In this document: positions 31,653 to 64,000 of the stretch, piece after piece
Layout of the letters: every line of letters starts with the position of its first letter
Numbering within the stretch: position 1 is the first letter of the stretch
From: Verrucomicrobiota bacterium
GTDB taxonomy: Bacteria > Verrucomicrobiota > Verrucomicrobiia > Verrucomicrobiales > V1-33
NCBI GenBank assembly: GCA_003402705.1
Contig: QQNF01000001.1
Location: 1 to 64,000 of the forward strand
Direction of reading: 5' to 3'
Length of the DNA: 64,000 nucleotides
The notes under the pieces: generated by a model
Told to the model about the DNA's origin: nothing
Database searches by the model: none
What the model saw: the letters and a program-made list of their open reading frames with translations, nothing else
Made by a program: the position numbers and the translations under genes

Positions 31653-31835
31653 AGCCCCGGGTCTCGCAACGTCATGCCCGGGGCAACCATCCAAACATCC
31701 TCACAACCACATACGGGGTTGCACCCTCTCCAAACCCGCCGCTCCCCAGGCCGAAGGCCTGACGGAAATTAGCCGGTGGCGTCAGCCACCGGTCTAACAT
31801 AATAATGAATCACCGCCCCGGCAGGGGCGGCAGAT
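31653..31835. repeat. Cluster of GC-rich hairpin repeats after the FGGY kinase
   Basis: Several stem-loops stand in a row: gccccggg/cccggggc (31654-31685), aggcc-gaa-ggcct (31748-31760), ccggtgg/ccaccgg (31773-31792) and a cgccccgg/ggggcg pair (31813-31829). They resemble REP-like intergenic repeats found elsewhere in the window (34672 and 47721). The block separates two convergent genes, so it may also end transcription. Confidence 0.6.
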
Positions 31836-31840
31836 CCACC

Positions 31841-49798: not shown

Positions 49799-51856
49799 AT
49801 GCCCCCATCCCCGCGCAAAATCCTCCTCATCGGCTGGGACTCCGCCGACTGGCGCATCCTCGACCCTCTCCTCGCCGCAGGCCAGATGCCCGCCCTCGCC
49901 AGTCTCATCGCCCGCGGGGTCCGCGGCAACCTCGCCACCGTCGAACCCGTCCTCTCCCCAGCCGTCTGGACCACCATCGCCACCGGCAAATTCCCCTTCC
50001 GCCACGGCGTCCTCGGCTTCGTCGAACCAGACCCCCTGACAGCCGGCGTCCGCCACACCGGCAGTTCCTCCCGCCACGGCGCTGCCCTCTGGAACATCCT
50101 CTCCCACTCCGGCCTCCACTCTCACTCCATCGGCTGGTTCGCCAGCCACCCCGCTGAACCCATCAACGGGCTCTGCCTCACCGACCGCTTCCCCCTCGCC
50201 ACCGCACCCCTCTCCGCCCCATGGCCGCTCCCCGATGGCTCCATCCACCCCCCAGACCGCGCCGCCTCCCTCGCCCCCCTCCGCGTCCACCCAGCCGAAA
50301 TCGAAGGCGATCAACTCCTCCCCTTCGTCCCCGCCGCCGCCTCTCTCGACCAGTCCGACGAGCTCACCCGCTCCCGCCTCCAGCAGATCGCCCTCATCCT
50401 CGCCTCCACCGCCTCCCTCCAGGCCGCCGCTACCCACGTCCTCCAACACGAACCATGGAACTTCCTCGGCGTCTACTTCCGCGCCCTCGACGAATTCGCG
50501 CACCACTTCATGCCGTTCCACCCGCCCCTCCTCCCGGGCATCTCCCCGACTGACGCCGCCACCTACGGCCAAGTCATCACCACCGCCTGCCGCTTCCACG
50601 ACGCCATGCTCGCTCGCTTGCTCCACCTCGCAGGCCCAGACACCACCGTCATCCTCGTCTCCGACCACGGCTTCGAAAGCGGTCACCTCCGCCCCGGCAC
50701 CCGCGCCGATCTCTCCTCCACCATGGCCCAATGGCACCGACCCTTCGGCATCTTCGTCATGGCCGGCCCCGGCATCGTCTCTAACGAAACCATCACCGGT
50801 GCCACCGTCCTCGACATCACCCCCACCATCCTCCACCTCTGCGGCCTCCCCGTCGCCGACGACATGGACGGCAAGGTCATGGTCACCGCCCTCGAACACC
50901 CGGAACCCATCCAGCGCATCCCCTCATGGGACCACTCCCGCCCCGCCTCTCCTAACCAACCCCTCTCCTCCACCACCGCCGCCGAAGCAAAACTCCTCAT
51001 GGATCAGCTCGCCGGCCTCGGCTACATCGACGACGCCTCCGCCGCCGCCGCCGACCTCGCCGCCCAGGCCGCCGCCGAACTCCGCTACAACCGCGTCGCC
51101 TCCCTCGCCCAGGCCTCCCACCTCATCGCAGCTTCCTCCGAAGCCTCCTCCCTCGCCGACGACTTCCCATCCGTCCTCCGCTATCGCCTCAAGGCCATCC
51201 AGGTCCTCCTCATGCGCGGTCTCCTCACAGGCGCCGCCTCCGCCCTCCACGCCGCGGAATCCGACCTCGGCCTCTCGGAACCTCTCTCCCGCATGAAGGC
51301 CAATCTCCTCGCCGCCTCCGGTCAGCCAGCCGACGCCCTCCTCGCCCTCAACTCCATCCCCGCAGACTCCCAGCTCCCCGCCGTCCACGAACAATACGGC
51401 TCCTTCCACCTCCAGCTCCGCAACTGGCCAGCCGCAGAAGCCGCCTTCCGCCGCGCCCTGACCCTCGAACCCGATAACCCCGGTGCCCTCCTCGGCCTCG
51501 CCAGCGCCCTCGCTCGCCAGGACCACAACGATGACGCCGCCGCCGCCGCCCTCCAAGCCCTCGAACTCCAGTACTGGTTCCCCGCCGCACACTTCCGACT
51601 CGGCGCCATCCTATCAAAATCCGCAGACTTCGCACGCGCCGCCGCTTCCTTCGAAACCGGCCTCTCCATGCAGCCCGGCAACCTCATGGCCCATCGCTAC
51701 CTAGCCAGAATCTACCTCCGCCTCGGCCAGCCAGAACGCGCCGTCGCCCACCGCGCCGTCGTCCGCGCCCTCACGGCGCACTCATCCACCGCGCCCGGTA
51801 AAACCGCCCCGGCCCAGCCCGCGTCAGCGGCACAGTCAGCACATTCCCATTCATGA
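49799..51856 (+). CDS. Alkaline phosphatase-family protein fused to TPR repeats
   Basis: A 685-residue protein. Residues 5-400 form a type I phosphodiesterase/nucleotide pyrophosphatase-like domain: metal ligand D14 in LLIGWDSADW, nucleophile threonine region TTIATGKFPFRHG, and D289/H290 in VSDHGFESGH. Residues 500-660 contain tetratricopeptide repeats (for example AAEAAFRRALTLEPDNPGAL). The C-terminal tail is low complexity and lies over the end of the convergent gene, so the stop may be a later run-on. Confidence 0.88.
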   Translation: MPPSPRKILLIGWDSADWRILDPLLAAGQMPALASLIARGVRGNLATVEPVLSPAVWTTIATGKFPFRHGVLGFVEPDPLTAGVRHTGSSSRHGAALWNILSHSGLHSHSIGWFASHPAEPINGLCLTDRFPLATAPLSAPWPLPDGSIHPPDRAASLAPLRVHPAEIEGDQLLPFVPAAASLDQSDELTRSRLQQIALILASTASLQAAATHVLQHEPWNFLGVYFRALDEFAHHFMPFHPPLLPGISPTDAATYGQVITTACRFHDAMLARLLHLAGPDTTVILVSDHGFESGHLRPGTRADLSSTMAQWHRPFGIFVMAGPGIVSNETITGATVLDITPTILHLCGLPVADDMDGKVMVTALEHPEPIQRIPSWDHSRPASPNQPLSSTTAAEAKLLMDQLAGLGYIDDASAAAADLAAQAAAELRYNRVASLAQASHLIAASSEASSLADDFPSVLRYRLKAIQVLLMRGLLTGAASALHAAESDLGLSEPLSRMKANLLAASGQPADALLALNSIPADSQLPAVHEQYGSFHLQLRNWPAAEAAFRRALTLEPDNPGALLGLASALARQDHNDDAAAAALQALELQYWFPAAHFRLGAILSKSADFARAAASFETGLSMQPGNLMAHRYLARIYLRLGQPERAVAHRAVVRALTAHSSTAPGKTAPAQPASAAQSAHSHS

Positions 51857-54800
51857 TGTGCGTGCTCTCCGTTCCCCACACCCCCAGATTCACCGAACTC
51901 TCAATCCGGTAAATCCGCCCCGCCGCATCCGGCAGCGTCAGCTGCAATCCCGTCCCGCCAGTCTCCGTCAATCCCAGCCGCGGCACCACCATCGGAGCCG
52001 TATTCACCAGCCCGCCACCCGTCACCGTATCGACTTCTAACTCAAGATCAAATCCCAGATCGCTGCTCGTCGCCGCGTTCTGCCGGATCTCCGCCGCAAA
52101 CACATTGTTCCCCGCCGTCAGCGCAGAAACCGCCAGCGGCACCGTCAGCCACGTCTGCTCGTCCGCCCCGCCCACACTCACCGTCGCCAGATCCGCAGGC
52201 CCGGGATTGGCAGGAAGATTGTTCACCCAGATCCGGTTCCCGTTCAGATACAGCTGAATCCCGTCGTCCCGCATCACCCGCAGTCTCGCCGCACTGAACA
52301 CCACCCCCGCAGGCACCGCAAAGGCCCGCCGGAACCAGTACACCGTCCGCCCCGGCGTCACCTGACCAGTCTCCCCATCCCCCCCGAACCCTAGCCGCGT
52401 CCGCCCGGTCTTCCACGCCGCATCATCAAACACACCACCCGTCCACCCCGCCGCAGGAGCCACCCCACTATCCAGGTAACGCCAGTCCGCCCCCGACCAG
52501 ATCAATCGCTGCACCGTCACCGGCGACCCCACCGTCACCGGCACCACAGCCGTCGTCAGCGACGCCCCGCTCACCAGCTCCACCCGCGCCCGCACCCCGT
52601 AACTCCCCTTCAGCGCACTCGCCCACACCAGCCCCCACGGCGCACTCACCGCCTCCCCTAGCTTCGCACTCCCTGCAAAATACTCCACCCTCCTCACCGC
52701 TCCCGGCAGATTCGCCGTCGCCACCGCAAACCCTAACGGCTCATCCGACTTCACCACCTGCCCCGCCGCCGGTGCCGTCAGCCAAACCGACGCCCCACCC
52801 GCCGCCGGTGCCTTCAGCCCCGCCAGCTCCAGATCAAATCCCAGATCACTGCTCCCCACCGCCGACTGATGCACCTCCACCGCCAGCTGATTCTCACCAG
52901 CACGCAACCCAGTCACCGGCACCACCACCTCCACAGGATTCACCTCGTCCTCCGCAGCCGCACTAGCCAGCGTCGAAAACGCCAGCACTCCCTCCGGCAG
53001 ATTGTCCCGCAGCAGCTCCACACGGTTCAACTGCACCGACACCCCGTCGTCCCGCACCACCCGCAGCCGCAGCGCATCAAACGCCGCAGGATCCGTCACC
53101 GTGAACTTCTTCCGGAAATACACCGTCGCCGGCTTCGCCCCAGCATCATCATATCCCAGCGCCGTCACCTCCCCGTCTCCCCCGTACCCTAACCGACCCG
53201 GCCCCTCACGCCAAGCCGTATCGTCAAAACTCGTCCGCCCCGGCCAGTTAGGCCCCGGATCCACCCCGCGGTCCTCATACTTCCATACCTCCCCCCGCTT
53301 CACCAGCACCGTCGCCTGCGCCGGAGCCCGCACCACCAGCGTCACCCCCGGCCCGCTGAACACCGCCCCCGCACTGTCCGTCGCCACCGCCGTCACCATA
53401 TGATTCCCCGCCACCGCGCCACTCCACGCCACACTCCACGGCCACTCGCCACTCTCCCCCACCTTCACCCCGTTCACCAGCCACTCCACCCGCCGCACCC
53501 CCAACCCAGCCCCCGGCAGCACCTCTCCCGTCAGCACCGGCACCTCCGGCAGCAGCACCGCCCCTCGCGCCGCCACATACACGCCCCGTCCCCGCCCCGT
53601 TCCCACGTCCGCCTTCAACTCCATGTCAAAACTCGCATCCGAACTCGTCGCCGATTCCTGCACCAGCTCCACCGCCACCGTATTCCATCCCGCCCGCAGC
53701 AACCCCCCATCCAGCATCGCTTCCACCCACGCATTCTCCTCACTCCCCGCCGCCTGCGCCGTCCCGTCCGCCCGGATGTTATGCCGGAACGCCAGCACCC
53801 CGTTCACATAAACCAGCGCCGCATCATCCCGCACCAGCCGAAACCGCAACCCGCTCACCGCACGCGGATCCGCCACCGCAAACGTCCGCCGGAACTGCGC
53901 CCTCACATACCTCGCCCCTCCAGGACTGATGTTCGTCACCTCATCCCCATCCCCGTACCCTAACTGCCCAGCCCCGCTGCTCCACCCGCTGTCGTCAAAC
54001 CCGGGCCGCTCCCAACCAACCGGTGCCGCCGCCGTCGCCGCACGCCACTTCCACACACTCCCCGCTCCAATCAGATCCACCGGAGCCGCTCCCACCGTCA
54101 CCGCCACCGCTCCAGATGTCAGCGGACTCCCCACACTGAACGTCGCCACCACCCGCAGCACATGCGCCCCAGCCGTCGGATTGCTCCACGTCAGCGCATA
54201 CGGAGCCGTCACATCCTCACCCGCCTTCACCCCATCGATCAGAAACTCCACCTTCGTCACCGTCGCCGTCCGCGCCCGCGCCTCCGCCGTCAGCACCACC
54301 GGCACTCCCGCCACCAGCCGCCCCCCGCTCTCCGGAAATGTCAGGTAAGCCGCCTGCGCCCCAGCCGTCGGCGCATCCTGCACCCCCAGCAACTCCCCAT
54401 CAAACGCCAGATCACTGCTCGTCGGCTCCACCTGGTGCACCTCCGCACACAACCAGTTGTCCCCCGCCACCAGCAGCGTCGGACTGATCCCGTTCGTCTG
54501 CTGATACACCCCCGGCTCCGTCGAATCCAATGCCGTCGTTGCATACGTGATGTTCGCCTCCGTCACCGTCGCCGCAAAATTATCCTGATAAATCCGCGTC
54601 CCGTTCAGATACACCATCACCGCATCATCCCGCTGACACAACAGTCTCAACTCCTTGTACAACGCCGGATTCGCCACACTGAACCGCCGCCGGAAATACG
54701 CCGTCGTCCGCTTGTTCTGCGCATCCGGCCCGAAACTGATCACCGTCCCCTCTCCGCCATTCCCGTACCCTAGCAACCCAGGCCCCTGCGCCCACGCCGC

Positions 54801-57338
54801 ATCATTGAACGTCCTCGCACGCCACGCCGTCCCCAGATCCGTCCCCGTGTCATTGTACTTCCACACACTCAGCCGCGGCACCAAACCCGTCACCGTCTCC
54901 GCCGCCGTCTCCGCCACTGACAGATCCGCACCCGTCGCATTCACCGTCCAGTTCATCCCGCTGCTGAACGTCCGCACAAACGTCAGCCGGTTCGCCACCA
55001 CCTCCATCGCATCAATCCGCCGCACCCCCACCGGCACCCGGCACAACGCATAACTCCCATCACTGTCGCTCCACGCATACAGATTCCCTTCCGTATACAC
55101 CCGCACCCCGCCCATCGGCTGGCTGTCCCCGTCCACCACCCGCCCCGAAATCCTAACCTGCCCAGTCGGCAGCACTCCCACCCGCTGCACCACCGTCTTC
55201 CGCCACGTCCCCCCGCGGCAGTCACTCACCACACACTGCACCGCATACTCCCCATCCCCTCCAAACGTCTTCCGCTGCACCGGCTCGTTGTCCCACGAAT
55301 GCGTCCCATCCCCGAAATCCCAGTAATACGCCAGCCGGTCCCCGTCCGCATCCGTCGCCTCCACCTCCCACACACATTCCGCCCCGCTCGCCACATGCCC
55401 CGCCTGCGCCACCAGCCGCCCCTCCGGTACTCGGTTCCCACTCACCGCAAACCCCACCGCCAAATCCATCGCCCGCGGAAAAGCCGCCGCCCCAGTCCCC
55501 AGCGGCGTCACCGATACCCCCGCCGCCACATCCGTAAACGTCATCCCCACCGGCAAGGTCAGCCCAGTCTGCCTCGGCATCGCATCCACCCGGTAACTGT
55601 CCTCCCCCTGCTTGTTAGTAAAATGCAGCACCAGCCCGCGCTCGAACTCCGTCCCGCTCAGAGTCGCCCGATAGTCAAACCAGTAGTCCCTCCCCGCATC
55701 ACGACTCACCCGCAACCCCCGGAACCCATTCCCGTTCCGCGGCTCGTCACTCACATGCAGACGATACACCCCGGCCGTCGTCACCCGCGCACTCTCACCA
55801 TCCGGGATCCAGTCAATCGACGTCTTGTGACTCGACGTGTAATGCATCCCGTCACCCCCGCTCCCCATCGGATCATGGTTGTTCCCGTACTCCACATTCG
55901 ACCCATCCCCGATGATGCTGTTATCACTCGTATCCCACCGGTGCGCATGCGGCAGCCCCAGATTGTGCCCGAATTCATGCGTGAACACACTCAGCCCGTA
56001 ATAACCATTCGCTAGGTGCATCCCCACACCACCCACATACGCCAGCCCCGCATAACCAGCCGCCGGCCGCCCGTTCGTGAACACCCCCGCAAATGCAAAA
56101 TCGCTTAGCACGAAACCCGCCGCCGCCGCCGCCGCCCGCGCGTCAGGATACAGCCGCGACAACCCAGCATTGTCATAATCCCCGGCCGGCCGCCCGATCG
56201 CCAGCGCCGGTGTGAACTGCGATCCCCCGGGCCCCAGCGGCGCAATCCGGATCCGCCCCCACGACAGGTTGTTCATGTGATTGATGAACTCATTCATCAG
56301 CGCCGTCGCCCGCGCATCACTGATCGTATCCGCTAGCGCACTGCTGCTGTCGCTGAACCGCGGCCGCAGAAACAGCATCCGCTTGTATCCCTCCGTATAG
56401 CCACTCGCCGCCACCGGCAACCCGCTCGCCGCCACCTCCCCAACCCCGCCCGACGCCATCACCGGCAAATCCGGCTCACCTAACGCATACGCCGCCACCG
56501 CCCGACCCGCCCACTCCCTCCCGTGCGCCGCACAGCAGAACCGCCGCACCTCCCCGCCCAGCCTCACCGCCACCCCATCCTCCACCGCACACCCTCCCAC
56601 CCGCTCCCGCTCCACCCCGCGCTCCTCCACTCCCTCCACCTCCACCACCTCCGCAGGCTCGGAATCCAGCGCCATCACCTTGTCCACCCTCACCGCAGGA
56701 TTCACCGAAACATTCGTCGCCGCCTCCACCGGCAGCGCAATCCCCCGCAACGGCACCCGCCCTTTCGTCACATACTCTAACCCAGCCCCATACACCCCCA
56801 CCTCATACACCTCCCCGCCAATCTCCGCCCACCTCAGCAACCCCCCGCCCTCCACTTCCCGCCCAGGCACCACCCGCGCACACGCCACCGAAAAACTCCC
56901 CATCGCATTCACCTCCTCCTCCAGCATCTCCCTCACCCGCTCCGGCAAACCCGCCCGCCGCGCCCCCCTCACCGCCACCCGCAACGCCCGCTCCGGATCC
57001 GCCACCATCAAATCCGCCATCCTCCTCCTCCGCTCCCGCGCCAACCCCACCCCCTCAGCCTCCATCCCCGCACGCTCCCCACTCCCGGCGCGCTCCCAGC
57101 GCCCCATCCACCCCGCAAACGCCGCAATCTCCGGAATCTCCTCCCCCGCCACTCCCTCCTCATCTCCACCCACACTCACCCTCTCCTTCACCACATCCCT
57201 CACCCCTTTCTTCAATCCAACCCGCTCCCTCTCACCCACCTTCTCCACAACCTCCGGTCCACGGCTCACCCAAACCGCCGCCCCCAACAGGCCCAGCAGT
57301 ACTCCCAGATGCAGTCGCTTGCTCTTCATGCCCGCCAT
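51771..57338 (-). CDS. Large secreted reprolysin-like metalloprotease with repeated domains
   Basis: A 1855-residue secreted protein with an N-terminal signal (GVLLGLLGAAVWV). The zinc motif HEFGHNLGLPH is at residues 454-464. A PKD-like domain follows near residues 640-720, then a carboxypeptidase-regulatory-like domain (PTGQVRISGRVVDGDSQPMG). Four copies of a roughly 150-residue unit starting VWKY/WKW/WRY recur near 825, 1096, 1349 and 1616, separated by three Ig-like domains. The C-terminal end is a short FYRARW-type tail. It probably digests polymers outside the cell. Confidence 0.9.
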   Translation of the reverse strand: MAGMKSKRLHLGVLLGLLGAAVWVSRGPEVVEKVGERERVGLKKGVRDVVKERVSVGGDEEGVAGEEIPEIAAFAGWMGRWERAGSGERAGMEAEGVGLARERRRRMADLMVADPERALRVAVRGARRAGLPERVREMLEEEVNAMGSFSVACARVVPGREVEGGGLLRWAEIGGEVYEVGVYGAGLEYVTKGRVPLRGIALPVEAATNVSVNPAVRVDKVMALDSEPAEVVEVEGVEERGVERERVGGCAVEDGVAVRLGGEVRRFCCAAHGREWAGRAVAAYALGEPDLPVMASGGVGEVAASGLPVAASGYTEGYKRMLFLRPRFSDSSSALADTISDARATALMNEFINHMNNLSWGRIRIAPLGPGGSQFTPALAIGRPAGDYDNAGLSRLYPDARAAAAAAGFVLSDFAFAGVFTNGRPAAGYAGLAYVGGVGMHLANGYYGLSVFTHEFGHNLGLPHAHRWDTSDNSIIGDGSNVEYGNNHDPMGSGGDGMHYTSSHKTSIDWIPDGESARVTTAGVYRLHVSDEPRNGNGFRGLRVSRDAGRDYWFDYRATLSGTEFERGLVLHFTNKQGEDSYRVDAMPRQTGLTLPVGMTFTDVAAGVSVTPLGTGAAAFPRAMDLAVGFAVSGNRVPEGRLVAQAGHVASGAECVWEVEATDADGDRLAYYWDFGDGTHSWDNEPVQRKTFGGDGEYAVQCVVSDCRGGTWRKTVVQRVGVLPTGQVRISGRVVDGDSQPMGGVRVYTEGNLYAWSDSDGSYALCRVPVGVRRIDAMEVVANRLTFVRTFSSGMNWTVNATGADLSVAETAAETVTGLVPRLSVWKYNDTGTDLGTAWRARTFNDAAWAQGPGLLGYGNGGEGTVISFGPDAQNKRTTAYFRRRFSVANPALYKELRLLCQRDDAVMVYLNGTRIYQDNFAATVTEANITYATTALDSTEPGVYQQTNGISPTLLVAGDNWLCAEVHQVEPTSSDLAFDGELLGVQDAPTAGAQAAYLTFPESGGRLVAGVPVVLTAEARARTATVTKVEFLIDGVKAGEDVTAPYALTWSNPTAGAHVLRVVATFSVGSPLTSGAVAVTVGAAPVDLIGAGSVWKWRAATAAAPVGWERPGFDDSGWSSGAGQLGYGDGDEVTNISPGGARYVRAQFRRTFAVADPRAVSGLRFRLVRDDAALVYVNGVLAFRHNIRADGTAQAAGSEENAWVEAMLDGGLLRAGWNTVAVELVQESATSSDASFDMELKADVGTGRGRGVYVAARGAVLLPEVPVLTGEVLPGAGLGVRRVEWLVNGVKVGESGEWPWSVAWSGAVAGNHMVTAVATDSAGAVFSGPGVTLVVRAPAQATVLVKRGEVWKYEDRGVDPGPNWPGRTSFDDTAWREGPGRLGYGGDGEVTALGYDDAGAKPATVYFRKKFTVTDPAAFDALRLRVVRDDGVSVQLNRVELLRDNLPEGVLAFSTLASAAAEDEVNPVEVVVPVTGLRAGENQLAVEVHQSAVGSSDLGFDLELAGLKAPAAGGASVWLTAPAAGQVVKSDEPLGFAVATANLPGAVRRVEYFAGSAKLGEAVSAPWGLVWASALKGSYGVRARVELVSGASLTTAVVPVTVGSPVTVQRLIWSGADWRYLDSGVAPAAGWTGGVFDDAAWKTGRTRLGFGGDGETGQVTPGRTVYWFRRAFAVPAGVVFSAARLRVMRDDGIQLYLNGNRIWVNNLPANPGPADLATVSVGGADEQTWLTVPLAVSALTAGNNVFAAEIRQNAATSSDLGFDLELEVDTVTGGGLVNTAPMVVPRLGLTETGGTGLQLTLPDAAGRIYRIESSVNLGVWGTESTHIMNGNVLTVPLTRAGPGRFYRARWMSAP

Positions 57339-59440: not shown

Positions 59441-59502
59441 CCTTCACCGAGACAACGCTGACATGCTGATTGCATCTCGCCACCGGATTTCTATGGTGCT
59501 GG

Positions 59503-61335
59503 ATGTCCGTCTCCCGTCCGCGCTGGCTTCGTGATTTGATCCGCTTTCTGCCATTGCGGAGCCAGTTCGTATTATCGGGAAATGTGAGGGATCAGTATCC
59601 GGTGGAAATGCGGATGGCGATGGTGGTGCCCATGCCGTTGGTATCCTGTCTGGGTATGGAACTGCAGCGGGAAGGCATGGCACATTTTTTGGCGTTTGAC
59701 CCCGCACACGGGTTCTCAGTGCCGCTGGTTCACGGCCTGGATCAGCAGACTGAGCGCGATTTCTTCTCGAATCTCCTCGGGTTGGCATGGGCAGAGAATG
59801 GTCGGGCGGCAGCTTCTTCCGAAAGGTTTTTCGACCTGATGGAGACTATCGTGCGGCACTCCGCCGAGCCAATCGTACTGCTTGCCGATTTCGCCTCGCG
59901 GTTACTGATTCGGGCCGATTTGCCGACCGAGGCGGAGCAACGTGGATTCACGCGAGCGCTGGTGTTGTCGCATCAGGTGCTGCCCCGTCCACTCGGCCCG
60001 GACGGTAGGCCGTTTTTCAATCCGGTGATCTGGATCGTGGACAAGGAAGGCGATCTTCCAGACTGGTTCCTGCTGGGTAATCCGAAGATCCGGCATATCC
60101 CCGTGCCGTCGCCCGACCACGCGACCCGACGGCTGGTGGCGGGGAATCTCGCGGCGACTCTGAAGGGAGACTTGGCAGATGAACCCGTGACGCAGCTCGT
60201 GGATACCTTCGTGGAAGCAACGGATGGTCTGCTCGTCTGTGATCTCGTGGGCATTGCCCAGCTTTGCCGGAGCGAGGGACTCACCCTGACTGAAATTGGC
60301 GAAGGTGTGCGCCGCTACAAACTTGGCGTGACCGAGGACCCATGGAAAAAGGTGAATCGCGAAAAATTACGAATGGCAGAATCCTTGATCCGTCGCCGCG
60401 TGAAGGGTCAGGCCCACGCAGTGACGCACATGCTGGATCTCGTAAAGCGAGCGGTCTCAGGGATTGGCACGAAGGAAGGCGGCGGCGGGCGGCCCCGTGG
60501 CGTGGCGTTTCTCGCGGGACCCACGGGCGTGGGTAAAACCGAGCTCGCGAAGACCGTTACAGAGCTGTTGTTCGGAGACGAATCCCTCTGTATTCGTTTT
60601 GACATGAGCGAGTTCTCCGCCGAGCACAGCGATCAGAGGCTCATCGGCGCTCCGCCGGGGTATGTTGGCTATGATGTGGGCGGTGAACTGACCAACGCCG
60701 TGCGGCAGAAACCGTTCAGCGTGGTGTTGTTTGATGAAATCGAGAAAGCTCATCCGCGTATTCTGGACAAATTCCTGCAAGTGCTGGACGACGGGGTACT
60801 GACTTCCGGTCGCGGGGAAAGGGTGTATTTCTCCGAGGCCTTTCTGATCTTCACCTCCAATCTCGGCATATACCGTCTGGATGCGCACGGGGAGCGCGTT
60901 CCGAATGTTCTTCCGGGCGAACCCTACGACGCCGTGCAGGCCAAGGTGAAGGATGAGATCGCTCGGCATTTCAATCTAACACTAGGACGGCCGGAAATCC
61001 TCAACCGTTTGGGTGAAAATATCATGGTCTTCGATTTCATCCGCGACGATGTGGCTGCAGAGATTTTCGATGCCATGCTCGATGGCTTGGCTCTCAAAGC
61101 GAAACAGTCGCAACATGTGACTGTCGAAATTTCCGCGGAAGCAAGACACACTTTGCGGCAGCTCTGCACCGCAGATCTGTCCAATGGCGGGCGTGGCATT
61201 CGCAACCAGTTGGAGGTACATTTCGTCAACCCTCTGGCACGTCTGCTGTTCGATCAGAACGTGCCTCCCGGCACCACGCTTCGGATCAACGGATTGCACC
61301 ACACCACAGCGACCGTAATGGATGCCGCATTTTGA
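59503..61335 (+). CDS. ClpB-D2-like AAA+ ATPase with unusual N-terminal half
   Basis: A 610-residue protein (start ATG 59503; TTG 59470 is possible). Residues 1-300 are an N-terminal domain starting with LPLRSQFVLSGNVRDQY, itself possibly a degenerate P-loop fold. Residues 310-600 are a full AAA+ domain of the ClpB/Hsp104 D2 type: Walker A GPTGVGKT (K345), pore loop GAPPGYVGYDVGG, Walker B VVLFDEIEKAH (D411, E412) and sensor FTSNLG. It could remodel proteins. The next two genes follow closely, so the three probably work together. Confidence 0.88.
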   Translation: MSVSRPRWLRDLIRFLPLRSQFVLSGNVRDQYPVEMRMAMVVPMPLVSCLGMELQREGMAHFLAFDPAHGFSVPLVHGLDQQTERDFFSNLLGLAWAENGRAAASSERFFDLMETIVRHSAEPIVLLADFASRLLIRADLPTEAEQRGFTRALVLSHQVLPRPLGPDGRPFFNPVIWIVDKEGDLPDWFLLGNPKIRHIPVPSPDHATRRLVAGNLAATLKGDLADEPVTQLVDTFVEATDGLLVCDLVGIAQLCRSEGLTLTEIGEGVRRYKLGVTEDPWKKVNREKLRMAESLIRRRVKGQAHAVTHMLDLVKRAVSGIGTKEGGGGRPRGVAFLAGPTGVGKTELAKTVTELLFGDESLCIRFDMSEFSAEHSDQRLIGAPPGYVGYDVGGELTNAVRQKPFSVVLFDEIEKAHPRILDKFLQVLDDGVLTSGRGERVYFSEAFLIFTSNLGIYRLDAHGERVPNVLPGEPYDAVQAKVKDEIARHFNLTLGRPEILNRLGENIMVFDFIRDDVAAEIFDAMLDGLALKAKQSQHVTVEISAEARHTLRQLCTADLSNGGRGIRNQLEVHFVNPLARLLFDQNVPPGTTLRINGLHHTTATVMDAAF

Positions 61336-61345
61336 TTCCACTGCC

Positions 61346-62017
61346 ATGCGTCTCTTCCTCAGCCGGCTGCATTTTCCCGTGACCACCCTCGGTCCCGGAC
61401 GTCGTGCAGGCATCTGGTTCCAGGGATGCAGCCTGCATTGTCCAGGCTGCATCAGTACCGACACCTGGATCCATGAGCGAGGCCAGACAACGGTGGCCGA
61501 CGTGATACAAACCATTTCTCCCTGGCTGCACGAGGCTGATGGCGTCACAATCTCCGGAGGTGAACCGTTCGAGCAGCTGGAGGCGTTGGAGGCTCTGCTG
61601 ATCGCGCTGCGGGAGGAGATCGGACCAGACAAAGATGTGCTGGTCTACTCCGGCCATACATGGGAGAAAATTTCGCGACGCCTGTCAACGTGGGCGGGTC
61701 TCGCCGATGCACTCATCAGTGATCCGTTCGTGCGTTCGGGTTCGCAAACGTTCGTCTGGCGCGGATCGGATAATCAGCGCCTGCATCTTCTCACGGAATT
61801 GGGGCGGAAGCGTTACTCCGATTCACGGCACGCACTTCGCGAAACATTACCGAAGGCCTTGGATGTGTATTTTGATGGCGACACAGTCTGGATGGCAGGG
61901 ATTCCAGAAGCAGGCAGCCTCACTCAAATCACGCAGGCTCTCGCCGACGCCGGATTCGCTTCCGCCGCTTCAGATGGCGATCCGATATCGCCGCAGCCTT
62001 TTCCTGTTTTCGCATGA
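61346..62017 (+). CDS. Radical SAM activase-type protein (4Fe-4S, NrdG-like)
   Basis: A 223-residue protein from ATG 61346 (an upstream ATG at 61322 overlaps the AAA+ gene). The cluster motif is C28-S-L-H-C32-P-G-C35 (CxxxCxxC), followed by the SAM-binding GGE in TISGGEPFEQ. The segment RRAGIWFQGCSLHCPGC is typical of ribonucleotide reductase activase and related single-cluster proteins. It may make a glycyl radical or modify a partner protein. Its substrate is not clear; no glycyl radical enzyme is visible in the window. Confidence 0.87.
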   Translation: MRLFLSRLHFPVTTLGPGRRAGIWFQGCSLHCPGCISTDTWIHERGQTTVADVIQTISPWLHEADGVTISGGEPFEQLEALEALLIALREEIGPDKDVLVYSGHTWEKISRRLSTWAGLADALISDPFVRSGSQTFVWRGSDNQRLHLLTELGRKRYSDSRHALRETLPKALDVYFDGDTVWMAGIPEAGSLTQITQALADAGFASAASDGDPISPQPFPVFA

Positions 62018-64000
62018 TACGCCGTTGTCCAAGGTGCCAGACCGATCGTTCGCTAGACGAAATCCTGTGTCAGGGTAGCTTTGGTGACCGCAAGTGTGGC
62101 TGGTCATTGCTCGACATTCTGCCCTCGCCCGTGTCCCAGCCCACCGAAACCAATGCGCCTGTCGCCGTGGTGGAAACGGTCACGGGCAATGCTCCCGCCG
62201 CCTTGCGATGCCGGAATGGGCACCCGCTGGAACCGGGTGATTTTCTTTGTTTGGAATGCGGCGAGCCTGTGGTCAGTGCCGAAGCGCCGGAGAGCAGGCT
62301 CGTGCAGGCTGATCCCGAGATGATCAAAGGCTGGACGCCGGGCGCGGAGCTGCCAGTGCATTCCGGCGAATCCGATCTCCGGCTTGTTCGCAAGGACGGG
62401 GTCACCGCTGTCCTCAAGCACTACCGGCGCGGCATCGAACCGGAGGTAGCGTTGTATCCATCGCTGCGTACCTTGGATGCAGCACATGGTGTGCGGCTGC
62501 TGGACTCGGGACGTCATGAGGATCGCGCTTTTGAAATCTGGGAATACCTTCCGCTGGGCACGCTGGGTGGCATTCCAGCTGAGGAGAAAGCGAATCCCGG
62601 ACTCGTTCGTCTCATCTTGGACGAACTGGGCCGCGCGTTGCACGGGCTGGCGCAGATCAACTTGATCCACCGGGACTTGAAACCCGCCAATGTGCTGGTG
62701 CGCAGCCGCGAGCCGCTGGATCTGGTGCTGGCGGACTTCAGCACCGCCACGGTCAGCGAGTTCGATTTGCAACTCACGATCTCCCGGCAAACAACCCGTT
62801 ATGCAGCACCTGAGACGATTGCCGGTACCTGCTCAATGGCTTCGGATTGGTGGAGCCTCGGCGTCATGGTGCTGGAAATGCTCACCGAGGGACGCGGCTT
62901 CGAGGGCGTGCATGAGCGGGCGTTTTTGCTCCATCTCGTCACGCGCGGGCTGCGGGTGCCGGAAGATTTGCCAGAAGAATGGCAGGAGCTTCTAAAGGGG
63001 CTGCTGACACGCGATCCTTCGCAACGATGGAGCTGGCCGCACGTGGAGCGCTGGCTGAATGGCGAGCGCGGCATTCCGCATGGTTACACGCAAGAGAGCG
63101 CCGAGGCCGCGCCCGCTGGAATCACCTTGCGGCTCGGGGCGCGCACTTGGGGCACACCGGAAAGCTTTGCGCTGGCGGCGGTGGAAGCAGCGCATTGGGA
63201 CGAAGCTCGGGATATTCTGTTGAGCGGACGGCTGGCCACCTGGCTGCACGAGCGCGGGGGCGAAAGAGACGTCGCACGTGCGGCCCAAGTACGGGATGTC
63301 GCCTCGGAAACCGCATTGCCCGAAGATGCCCGGCTCGCGGCAGCGGTAATGCTGCTCAACCATCATCTTCCACTCTGCCTGCACGGTGAAATCATCACGC
63401 CGAACTGGTTGCTGGCGCATCCCGATACCGCCTGGCAATGGCTGAATAGCCCGCTTCCTCACCGACTGAGGCAATGTGGACGCGAGACGTGGCTGGTGCG
63501 ATTGAAGGATCGCGCGGACCGCCTTCGCCACCGACTGCGAGAGTTGAAGCTCGACGTCGACGAAGTACAGCTTTCCGCAGCCATGCTATCCACTTCCCAA
63601 AGCATGCTGGAGAGTCGCTGGGCGCAGCGGCGCCGGCTTTACCCCGAAGCCGAGCATCCTGCGCTGATTGGCATGATGCAGCGGCGGACCGCCATGGAGG
63701 ATGACCTCATCCTGCTCATCTCCGCCAGCACTTCTTACTTTCGACCGGCGGCAGACGTGCTGGAGGAAGCCACCCGCGAAGCGCATCGCGCACAAGTTTC
63801 CTTCGCTCCCGACACGATGGCCATCTGGTTCGAACGCAGCCGGACTGACGTTCTGAAAGCAGTCGATCGACAGCTGCAAAACTTCGCTCGCTGTGGCCGC
63901 GGGATTCCCGATCAATGGGCGGACGATTTCCGGCAGGATCGACGCATCACACTGGCACGAGCCCTCGTGCTGCTGGCCATTCCTCAGGACGAATGGCGTG
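62014..64000 (+). CDS. Zinc-ribbon serine/threonine protein kinase with large C-terminal domain (partial)
   Basis: A frame of at least 662 residues with no stop before the window ends, overlapping the radical SAM gene by 4 bases. Two N-terminal cysteine clusters (CPRCQTD, CGWS, then CRNGHPLEPGDFLCLECG) look like zinc ribbons. The kinase domain spans residues 110-350: a Lys in AVLKHYR (K135), HRDLKPANVLV (H219, D221, N226), then DFS (D241, S243) where DFG is usual, and APETI. A clear glycine-rich loop is missing. The large C-terminal region is helical and unlike anything I recognise. Confidence 0.9.
   Translation, partial: MIRRCPRCQTDRSLDEILCQGSFGDRKCGWSLLDILPSPVSQPTETNAPVAVVETVTGNAPAALRCRNGHPLEPGDFLCLECGEPVVSAEAPESRLVQADPEMIKGWTPGAELPVHSGESDLRLVRKDGVTAVLKHYRRGIEPEVALYPSLRTLDAAHGVRLLDSGRHEDRAFEIWEYLPLGTLGGIPAEEKANPGLVRLILDELGRALHGLAQINLIHRDLKPANVLVRSREPLDLVLADFSTATVSEFDLQLTISRQTTRYAAPETIAGTCSMASDWWSLGVMVLEMLTEGRGFEGVHERAFLLHLVTRGLRVPEDLPEEWQELLKGLLTRDPSQRWSWPHVERWLNGERGIPHGYTQESAEAAPAGITLRLGARTWGTPESFALAAVEAAHWDEARDILLSGRLATWLHERGGERDVARAAQVRDVASETALPEDARLAAAVMLLNHHLPLCLHGEIITPNWLLAHPDTAWQWLNSPLPHRLRQCGRETWLVRLKDRADRLRHRLRELKLDVDEVQLSAAMLSTSQSMLESRWAQRRRLYPEAEHPALIGMMQRRTAMEDDLILLISASTSYFRPAADVLEEATREAHRAQVSFAPDTMAIWFERSRTDVLKAVDRQLQNFARCGRGIPDQWADDFRQDRRITLARALVLLAIPQDEWR

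Follow-up and report, generated by a model that had tools for sequence, protein, structure and literature searches.

The window analysed here is the whole 64,000-nucleotide stretch formed by positions 1-64,000 of contig QQNF01000001.1 from a Verrucomicrobiota bacterium; the contig itself has 168,656 bases and extends beyond the window end. Near this end, an earlier note made from the letters alone described three genes with 10-bp and minus-4-bp spacing, encoding a ClpB-D2-like AAA+ motor, an NrdG-like radical S-adenosylmethionine (SAM) activase and a zinc-ribbon Ser/Thr kinase. These coordinates and spacings were reproduced, and reading past position 64000 showed that the third gene runs to 68304 and is followed by a fourth. 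The resulting operon of four open reading frames (ORFs), named A to D here, occupies contig positions 59503-69651 entirely on the + strand, with an A-B gap of 10 bp, a B-C overlap of 4 bp and a C-D gap of 12 bp. The longest ORF of gene B begins at 61322; the start at 61346 is consistent with the homologues and yields the 10-bp gap. The features are as follows, in contig coordinates.

59503..61335, + strand: gene A, AAA+ unfoldase-like ATPase, 610 amino acids (Pfam AAA_2 3.7e-45, ClpB_D2-small; AlphaFold2 model similar to ClpC/ClpB over D1 and D2)
59503..60336, + strand: N-terminal domain of A, presumably a degenerate D1-like AAA domain (conservation, motif counts, structure match)
60493..61335, + strand: predicted active D2 motor of A, with Walker A GPTGVGKT, pore loop PPGYVGYD, Walker B and arginine finger
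61346..62017, + strand: gene B, NrdG-like and pyruvate formate-lyase (PFL) activating enzyme-like radical SAM enzyme, CxxxCxxC intact (Fer4_12 3.4e-26, NrdG 86.8 bits)
62014..68304, + strand: gene C, 2,096 amino acids (first 662 inside the window, 62014..64000)
62026..62097, + strand: zinc ribbon 1 of C (C5, C8, C19, C28; at least 95% conserved in 76 homologues)
62209..62259, + strand: zinc ribbon 2 of C (C66, H70, C79, C82; at least 95% conserved in 76 homologues)
62341..63051, + strand: Ser/Thr kinase-like domain of C (Pkinase 1.6e-24)
68317..69651, + strand: gene D, helical protein, 444 amino acids
59444..64000, + strand: left part of an inserted island that continues to contig position ~69818 (empty site in congeners)

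Domain organization of the four proteins

The second half of A is a ClpB-D2-type AAA+ domain, as the earlier note had recognized, and its Walker A, pore loop, Walker B and arginine finger are conserved. The first half gave no match to any Pfam family, and the AlphaFold model of the whole protein (mean predicted local distance difference test score, pLDDT, 83) matched ClpC/ClpB structures across both D1 and D2. No Walker A is present in D1. Because alignment and fold place SGNVRD at the P-loop position and DFASR at the Walker-B position, this domain is presumably degenerate and non-hydrolysing. The ClpP-docking tripeptide IGF/IGL was not found in the window A protein, and its absence from the sequence favours a role in remodelling over a partnership with a protease. 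A has the D1-D2 fold and an active D2 with a pore loop in common with ClpB, ClpC and ClpA, and differs from them in its dead D1 and in the lack of an N-domain and of the tripeptide. It does not qualify as a ClpB disaggregase, reaching 250.8 bits of a curated cut-off of 1232.1 and containing only one active AAA domain.

B belongs to the radical SAM superfamily by its intact CxxxCxxC motif and its Fer4_12 match, the Radical_SAM profile scoring below its gathering score; the three cluster cysteines and a GGE motif are invariant in 30 homologues. The best named family was NrdG, below the curated cut-off of 126.1 bits, and the nearest solved structures were those of the PFL activating enzyme. The description as an NrdG-like activase thus stands for the family and fails for the usual activase partners, which are absent in several hosts. 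The NRDD domain was missing in 6 of 11 system-bearing genomes tested, and neither NRDD nor Gly_radical was found in G000, G152 (99% complete), G286 and G289, by searches whose positive controls matched in E. coli and others. As both families are absent, B, judged by gene content, serves no known glycyl radical enzyme in these genomes, and a normal NrdG or PFL activase was rejected for several hosts. B shares the radical SAM fold and CxxxCxxC with these activases and differs in its sub-cut-off score, in its missing partners and in its tie to the AAA+ gene, which it adjoins in every operon variant seen.

C comprises, in order, two zinc ribbons, a kinase-like domain, DUF4011, a superfamily 1 (SF1) helicase (AAA_11/AAA_12) and an MTES_1575/Vsr nuclease (Pfam), the last three all lying beyond the window end. 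The ribbons and the kinase-like domain of the earlier note were confirmed, albeit as only the first sixth of the protein. In the window copy, the VAIK Lys, HRD Asp and DFG Asp expected of an active Ser/Thr kinase are all present, whereas VAIK Lys is replaced by Thr in 62/76 orthologues and DFG Asp by Gly in 61/76. All three residues were kept only in L002, L023 and L024, namely the window copy and two Verrucomicrobium copies. The kinase fold is probably retained mostly as a pseudokinase that is dead in almost all members, and phosphorylation as the conserved activity was rejected on the loss of the catalytic residues. Contrarily, all 76 homologues keep the helicase Walker residues K980, D1642 and E1643 as well as the arginine R1914, and the nuclease positions D2021, E2037 and D2039 are preserved in 76/76, 75/76 and 73/76. 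The idea of a kinase-centred three-gene system is not supported on these grounds, the genes being four and the helicase and nuclease being the parts that are preserved.

The C-terminal half of C matched ProA (2.1e-151), Hhe (4.2e-95) and the PADLOC candidate PDC-S37 (3.5e-150); Hhe and ProA are DUF4011-helicase anti-phage proteins. Their architecture, DUF4011, SF1 helicase and then an MTES_1575/Vsr-type nuclease in one chain, is found in the same order in the second half of C. C differs in the zinc ribbons and kinase domain placed in front, in its partners A, B and D, and in scores far under the curated equivalog cut-offs (319 of 2000 bits for Hhe, 506 of 1500 for ProA), with similar values for its orthologues.

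D consists of long helices followed by a conserved C-terminal domain (LGYEV, D384, W391, C392; L023 numbering), with no consistent Pfam family and no significant PDB match by fold or by sequence. Despite an overall identity of only ~20-30% among D proteins, 73 of the 79 begin with MSGPK, and six lack it, one of those being truncated; the AlphaFold model (pLDDT 88) shows a strand at residues 2-10. Two separate groups (L064, L079 and L095; L027 and L029) have a D that begins with MS[AS]SVH or MSKL and keep B, of which only a fragment was read in L029. The two genes that follow D directly in Verrucomicrobium BvORR034 (L011:4127-5271) encode a zeta-toxin-like P-loop protein (VLAGVNGAGKSS) and a partner of 160 amino acids, possibly a toxin-antitoxin pair.

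Conserved gene order, variant operons and genomic context

Scanning of genome contigs yielded 194 relatives of A. Among the best 80 of these loci, 73 had sufficient downstream DNA; B was present in 72 of the 73, and the order A-B-C-D was kept in 71. This comparison of neighbourhoods, proposed in the earlier note, rules out rare co-occurrence, and a chance neighbourhood was rejected on the same synteny.

A and B form the constant core on which the effector is exchanged between variants, the most telling fact about the system. Two verrucomicrobial operons (L015:1313-8490 and L075:131-7674), in which no helicase was found, combine A and B with a zinc-ribbon and FHA protein, a PP2C, an MSGPK protein in which a hydrophobic segment probably spans the membrane, and a putatively active kinase, to which membrane helices (L075) or an FGE-sulfatase-like domain (L015) are fused. 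A clostridial variant on an Aristaeella plasmid (L020:3170-21032) encodes a DUF4011-helicase-MTES_1575 protein, two kinases, a protein that likewise begins with MSGPK, FHA, B, A and PP2C; here the helicase-nuclease is a separate gene near ProA/Hhe, with 1187 bits to ProA. The third variant (L022, L123 and L124) consists of a UPF1-like helicase, a PIN protein, a helper protein, A and B. In its Pseudomonas copies (L123:4851-14820 and L124:9421-19374) the helicase matched Mokosh MkoA at 3.1e-105, and Leisingera has an operon similar to this MkoA-like helicase and PIN type. The Pseudomonadaceae operon of L123/L124 resembles a second unnamed system on the same AAA+/radical SAM core.

With the N-terminal domain of A, which is specific for the family, as the query, matches were found in 7/286 genomes of the source class, 4/248 Pseudomonadaceae genomes (counting strong matches), 3/248 genomes in the family of a Rhizobiales host and 2/151 in the phylum of a Chlamydiae host, an overall frequency of ~1-3% of genomes in the four bacterial groups sampled. 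The hosts include Proteobacteria, Verrucomicrobia, Chlamydiae, Cyanobacteria, Acidobacteria, Planctomycetes and delta/myxobacterial metagenome-assembled genomes. No phage record contained the domain, and no copies turned up in E. coli when the Limnobaculum A gene was used as a DNA query. Operon copies also reside on Rhizobium plasmids and one Caballeronia plasmid, and 5 of the 9 plasmid records with a match were typed conjugative (Rhizobium). On the plasmid of Rhizobium sp. C104 (L018:15821-22744), B is truncated (126 amino acids) and C is split into two ORFs, by decay or sequencing errors. The tree of A showed some mixing, for example gammaproteobacterial rows among Chlamydiota; strong inter-phylum transfer was rejected as unsupported by it. 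Because the tree is mostly phylum-coherent, the sparse pattern is ascribed to loss and mostly shorter-range transfer.

The congeners G537 (L121) and G539 (L122) keep the left neighbour gene of the operon at 90% and 96% identity and display a clean empty site, which confirms the accessory island proposed earlier. Their homology to the window contig stops at 59441-59443 and restarts at 69819, with 12-13 bp between, so that the insertion measures ~10.37 kb and contains exactly genes A-D. Integrase, tRNA, target-site duplication and terminal repeats were not seen at the island ends, the tRNA scan covering a 20-kb stretch. The noted codon shift was also borne out, as the GC content at third codon positions is 0.62-0.69 within the operon versus 0.78-0.87 in three neighbouring genes measured. 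The genes are not housekeeping in this lineage: intact gene A was absent from all 12 other genomes examined in the source family, G539 giving just a match of 57 residues and 22.7 bits where a contig ends.

Elsewhere in the window, the minus strand at 51771-57338 encodes a 1,855-amino-acid protein that contains repeated units similar to each other as well as a HEFGHNLGLPH motif reminiscent of metalloproteases, and that adjoins the glycosyltransferase-like left neighbour of the island. In addition, a dispersed repeat occurs at window positions 31743-31839 and at 78.7-79.1 kb of the contig, both matching the sequence around L121:4451-4963 with 86-91% identity over ~100-270 bp.

One copy of the operon lies in G419, which we take to be Pseudomonas aeruginosa/paraeruginosa PA7, the PAO1 counterparts presumably being PA2725-PA2728. 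A, B, C and D are present in order, D being intact by tblastn, and on the D side follow an insertion sequence element and then DNA methyltransferase, DndH-like and Vsr genes. In the accessible text of Johnson et al. 2023 (PMC10250203), the right flank of P. aeruginosa core defence hotspot 1 consists of a DUF4011 gene, a radical SAM gene and a small hypothetical gene; in gene order as well as orientation, this flank corresponds to D, C and B. That text uses these genes as a landmark only, proposing no function and leaving the AAA+ gene unmentioned. The flank genes are very probably the same operon as A-D; they are core in P. aeruginosa, whereas the operon is sparse elsewhere.

Relation to known systems, proposed mechanism and alternatives

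No PADLOC or NCBIfam model names the A-D system, and none of the defence models covers A, B or D over the full length; no description of the system was found in the literature searched, subscription papers being outside the search. With type II/III CoCoNuT systems containing TerY-P (PMC11090510), the operon shares a UPF1-like helicase, zinc-ribbon/kinase signalling parts and an AAA+ family motor, and it differs in having a ClpB-like motor rather than McrB and in its radical SAM enzyme. CoCoNuTs combine an McrB-type GTPase, CnuB, with CnuC and CnuH, and no McrB/McrC-like gene, vWA or HEPN was found in the island. The likeness to the TerY-P triad (TerY-type vWA, PP2C and zinc-ribbon kinase) suggested by the earlier note reduces to a distant link through the zinc-ribbon/FHA, PP2C and active-kinase variants; the island has neither vWA nor PP2C, and PP2C and FHA occur in variant operons only. 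Mokosh (MkoA/MkoC helicases) is approached by the MkoA-like helicase of the sibling operon L123/L124, which differs in its extra PIN, AAA+ and radical SAM genes, and C itself matches Mokosh over the helicase core only. Hachiman HamAB, as summarized in the abstract of PMC12278908, offers an analogy of operation, in that a helicase restrains and then releases a nuclease upon DNA damage sensing; as a system it is not homologous and has no AAA+ or radical SAM part.

Judged from the families involved, A-D is probably a mobile operon whose four genes defend against invaders, whether phages or plasmids. Different helicases of defence families accompany the A-B core in its variants, namely MkoA-like with PIN and ProA/Hhe-like. 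The invariant helicase residues, the nearly invariant nuclease residues and the resemblance of half of C to ProA, Hhe and PDC-S37 point in the same direction. Moreover, the operon is accessory and mobile, as its empty site, sparse occurrence and conjugative Rhizobium plasmids show, and defence genes lie near the copy in G419.

In the proposed mechanism, C would be the sensor-effector. Its SF1 (UPF1/DNA2-like) helicase and Vsr-like nuclease, which lie behind the zinc ribbons, a kinase fold that is mostly dead and DUF4011, may process nucleic acid that is invading or damaged. A would act as a ring with one AAA+ motor, in which D2 threads or remodels a protein client and the dead D1 is used for docking. 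B may have left glycyl radical enzymes to act on a component or client of the complex, conjecturally one engaged by A. D would be a helical adaptor, its MSGPK being the leading candidate for a handle gripped by A or a site modified by B, again as a conjecture. The complex would be kept inactive until a trigger appears, which may be nucleic acid of foreign or aberrant kind or else a redox/Fe-S change sensed by B; A would then remodel D or C, and the helicase-nuclease activity would be released. As a tentative extension, which we hold to be possible rather than probable, the operon may represent a new class of immune machine. Its core, a radical SAM enzyme and a half-dead AAA+ unfoldase, would introduce or recognize a protein modification of radical origin and in this way license interchangeable helicase-nucleases as effectors (DUF4011/Vsr, Mokosh-like/PIN) or FHA/PP2C/kinase signalling modules.

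Several observations weigh against the defence assignment or parts of it. MSGPK is absent and B is nevertheless kept in L027, L064, L079, L095 and the PIN-type variant, which weakens D as the universal substrate of B and makes A, C or a client protein equal candidates. Long-range transfer is modest, since the A tree requires 6 label changes against a minimum of 5. The genes upstream of other loci include scattered JetA, NACHT, AbiEii and integrases, which, having no enrichment control, are not counted as proof, and no phage phenotype was found reported for A-D. The flanking DUF4011 gene occurs in every P. aeruginosa isolate according to the hotspot study (PMC10250203), which is unusual for a pure defence gene. 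The last point agrees better with a stress-response or repair and quality-control module, either Ter-like or a surveillance helicase with a remodeller, working on the damaged RNA or DNA of the cell itself. Surveillance and repair are roles of UPF1/DNA2-like helicases, a ClpB-type motor and an oxygen-sensitive Fe-S enzyme fit stress biology, and the FHA, PP2C and active-kinase variants resemble signalling. Such a module is, however, the less likely explanation, and appreciably so, given the very sparse (1-3%) and mobile distribution, the repeated pairing with helicase families catalogued as anti-phage and the defence genes adjoining the operon in G419.

A signalling system centred on phosphorylation by the zinc-ribbon kinase would suit the intact catalytic residues of the window copy and the kinase genes with PP2C and FHA partners in L015, L075 and L020, but the substitutions that leave only L002, L023 and L024 with the full set render it improbable. 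That B is an ordinary activase of ribonucleotide reductase or PFL, adjoining a ClpB relative and a restriction-like gene by chance, draws on NrdG as its best named family and on PFL activating enzymes as its solved relatives. This is very improbable in view of the sub-cut-off NrdG score, the system-bearing genomes with neither NRDD nor Gly_radical, and the tie of B to A in all variants and in 72/73 loci. Chance neighbours or an assembly artefact might be suspected from the 75% completeness of the source assembly, and can practically be dismissed: an independent Verrucomicrobium assembly carries the same operon, with A and C 75-83% identical, as do dozens of genomes and plasmids.

On the favoured reading of A-D as a defence operon, the effector half is of a known anti-phage helicase-nuclease kind, while the control half, a radical SAM enzyme with a dead-D1 AAA+ motor, does not belong to any named defence system that the searches of PADLOC, NCBIfam and the literature turned up. 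If the reading is true, radical chemistry on proteins would be added to the means by which bacteria control immune effectors, and the genes by which the main defence hotspot of P. aeruginosa appears to be anchored would gain a function.

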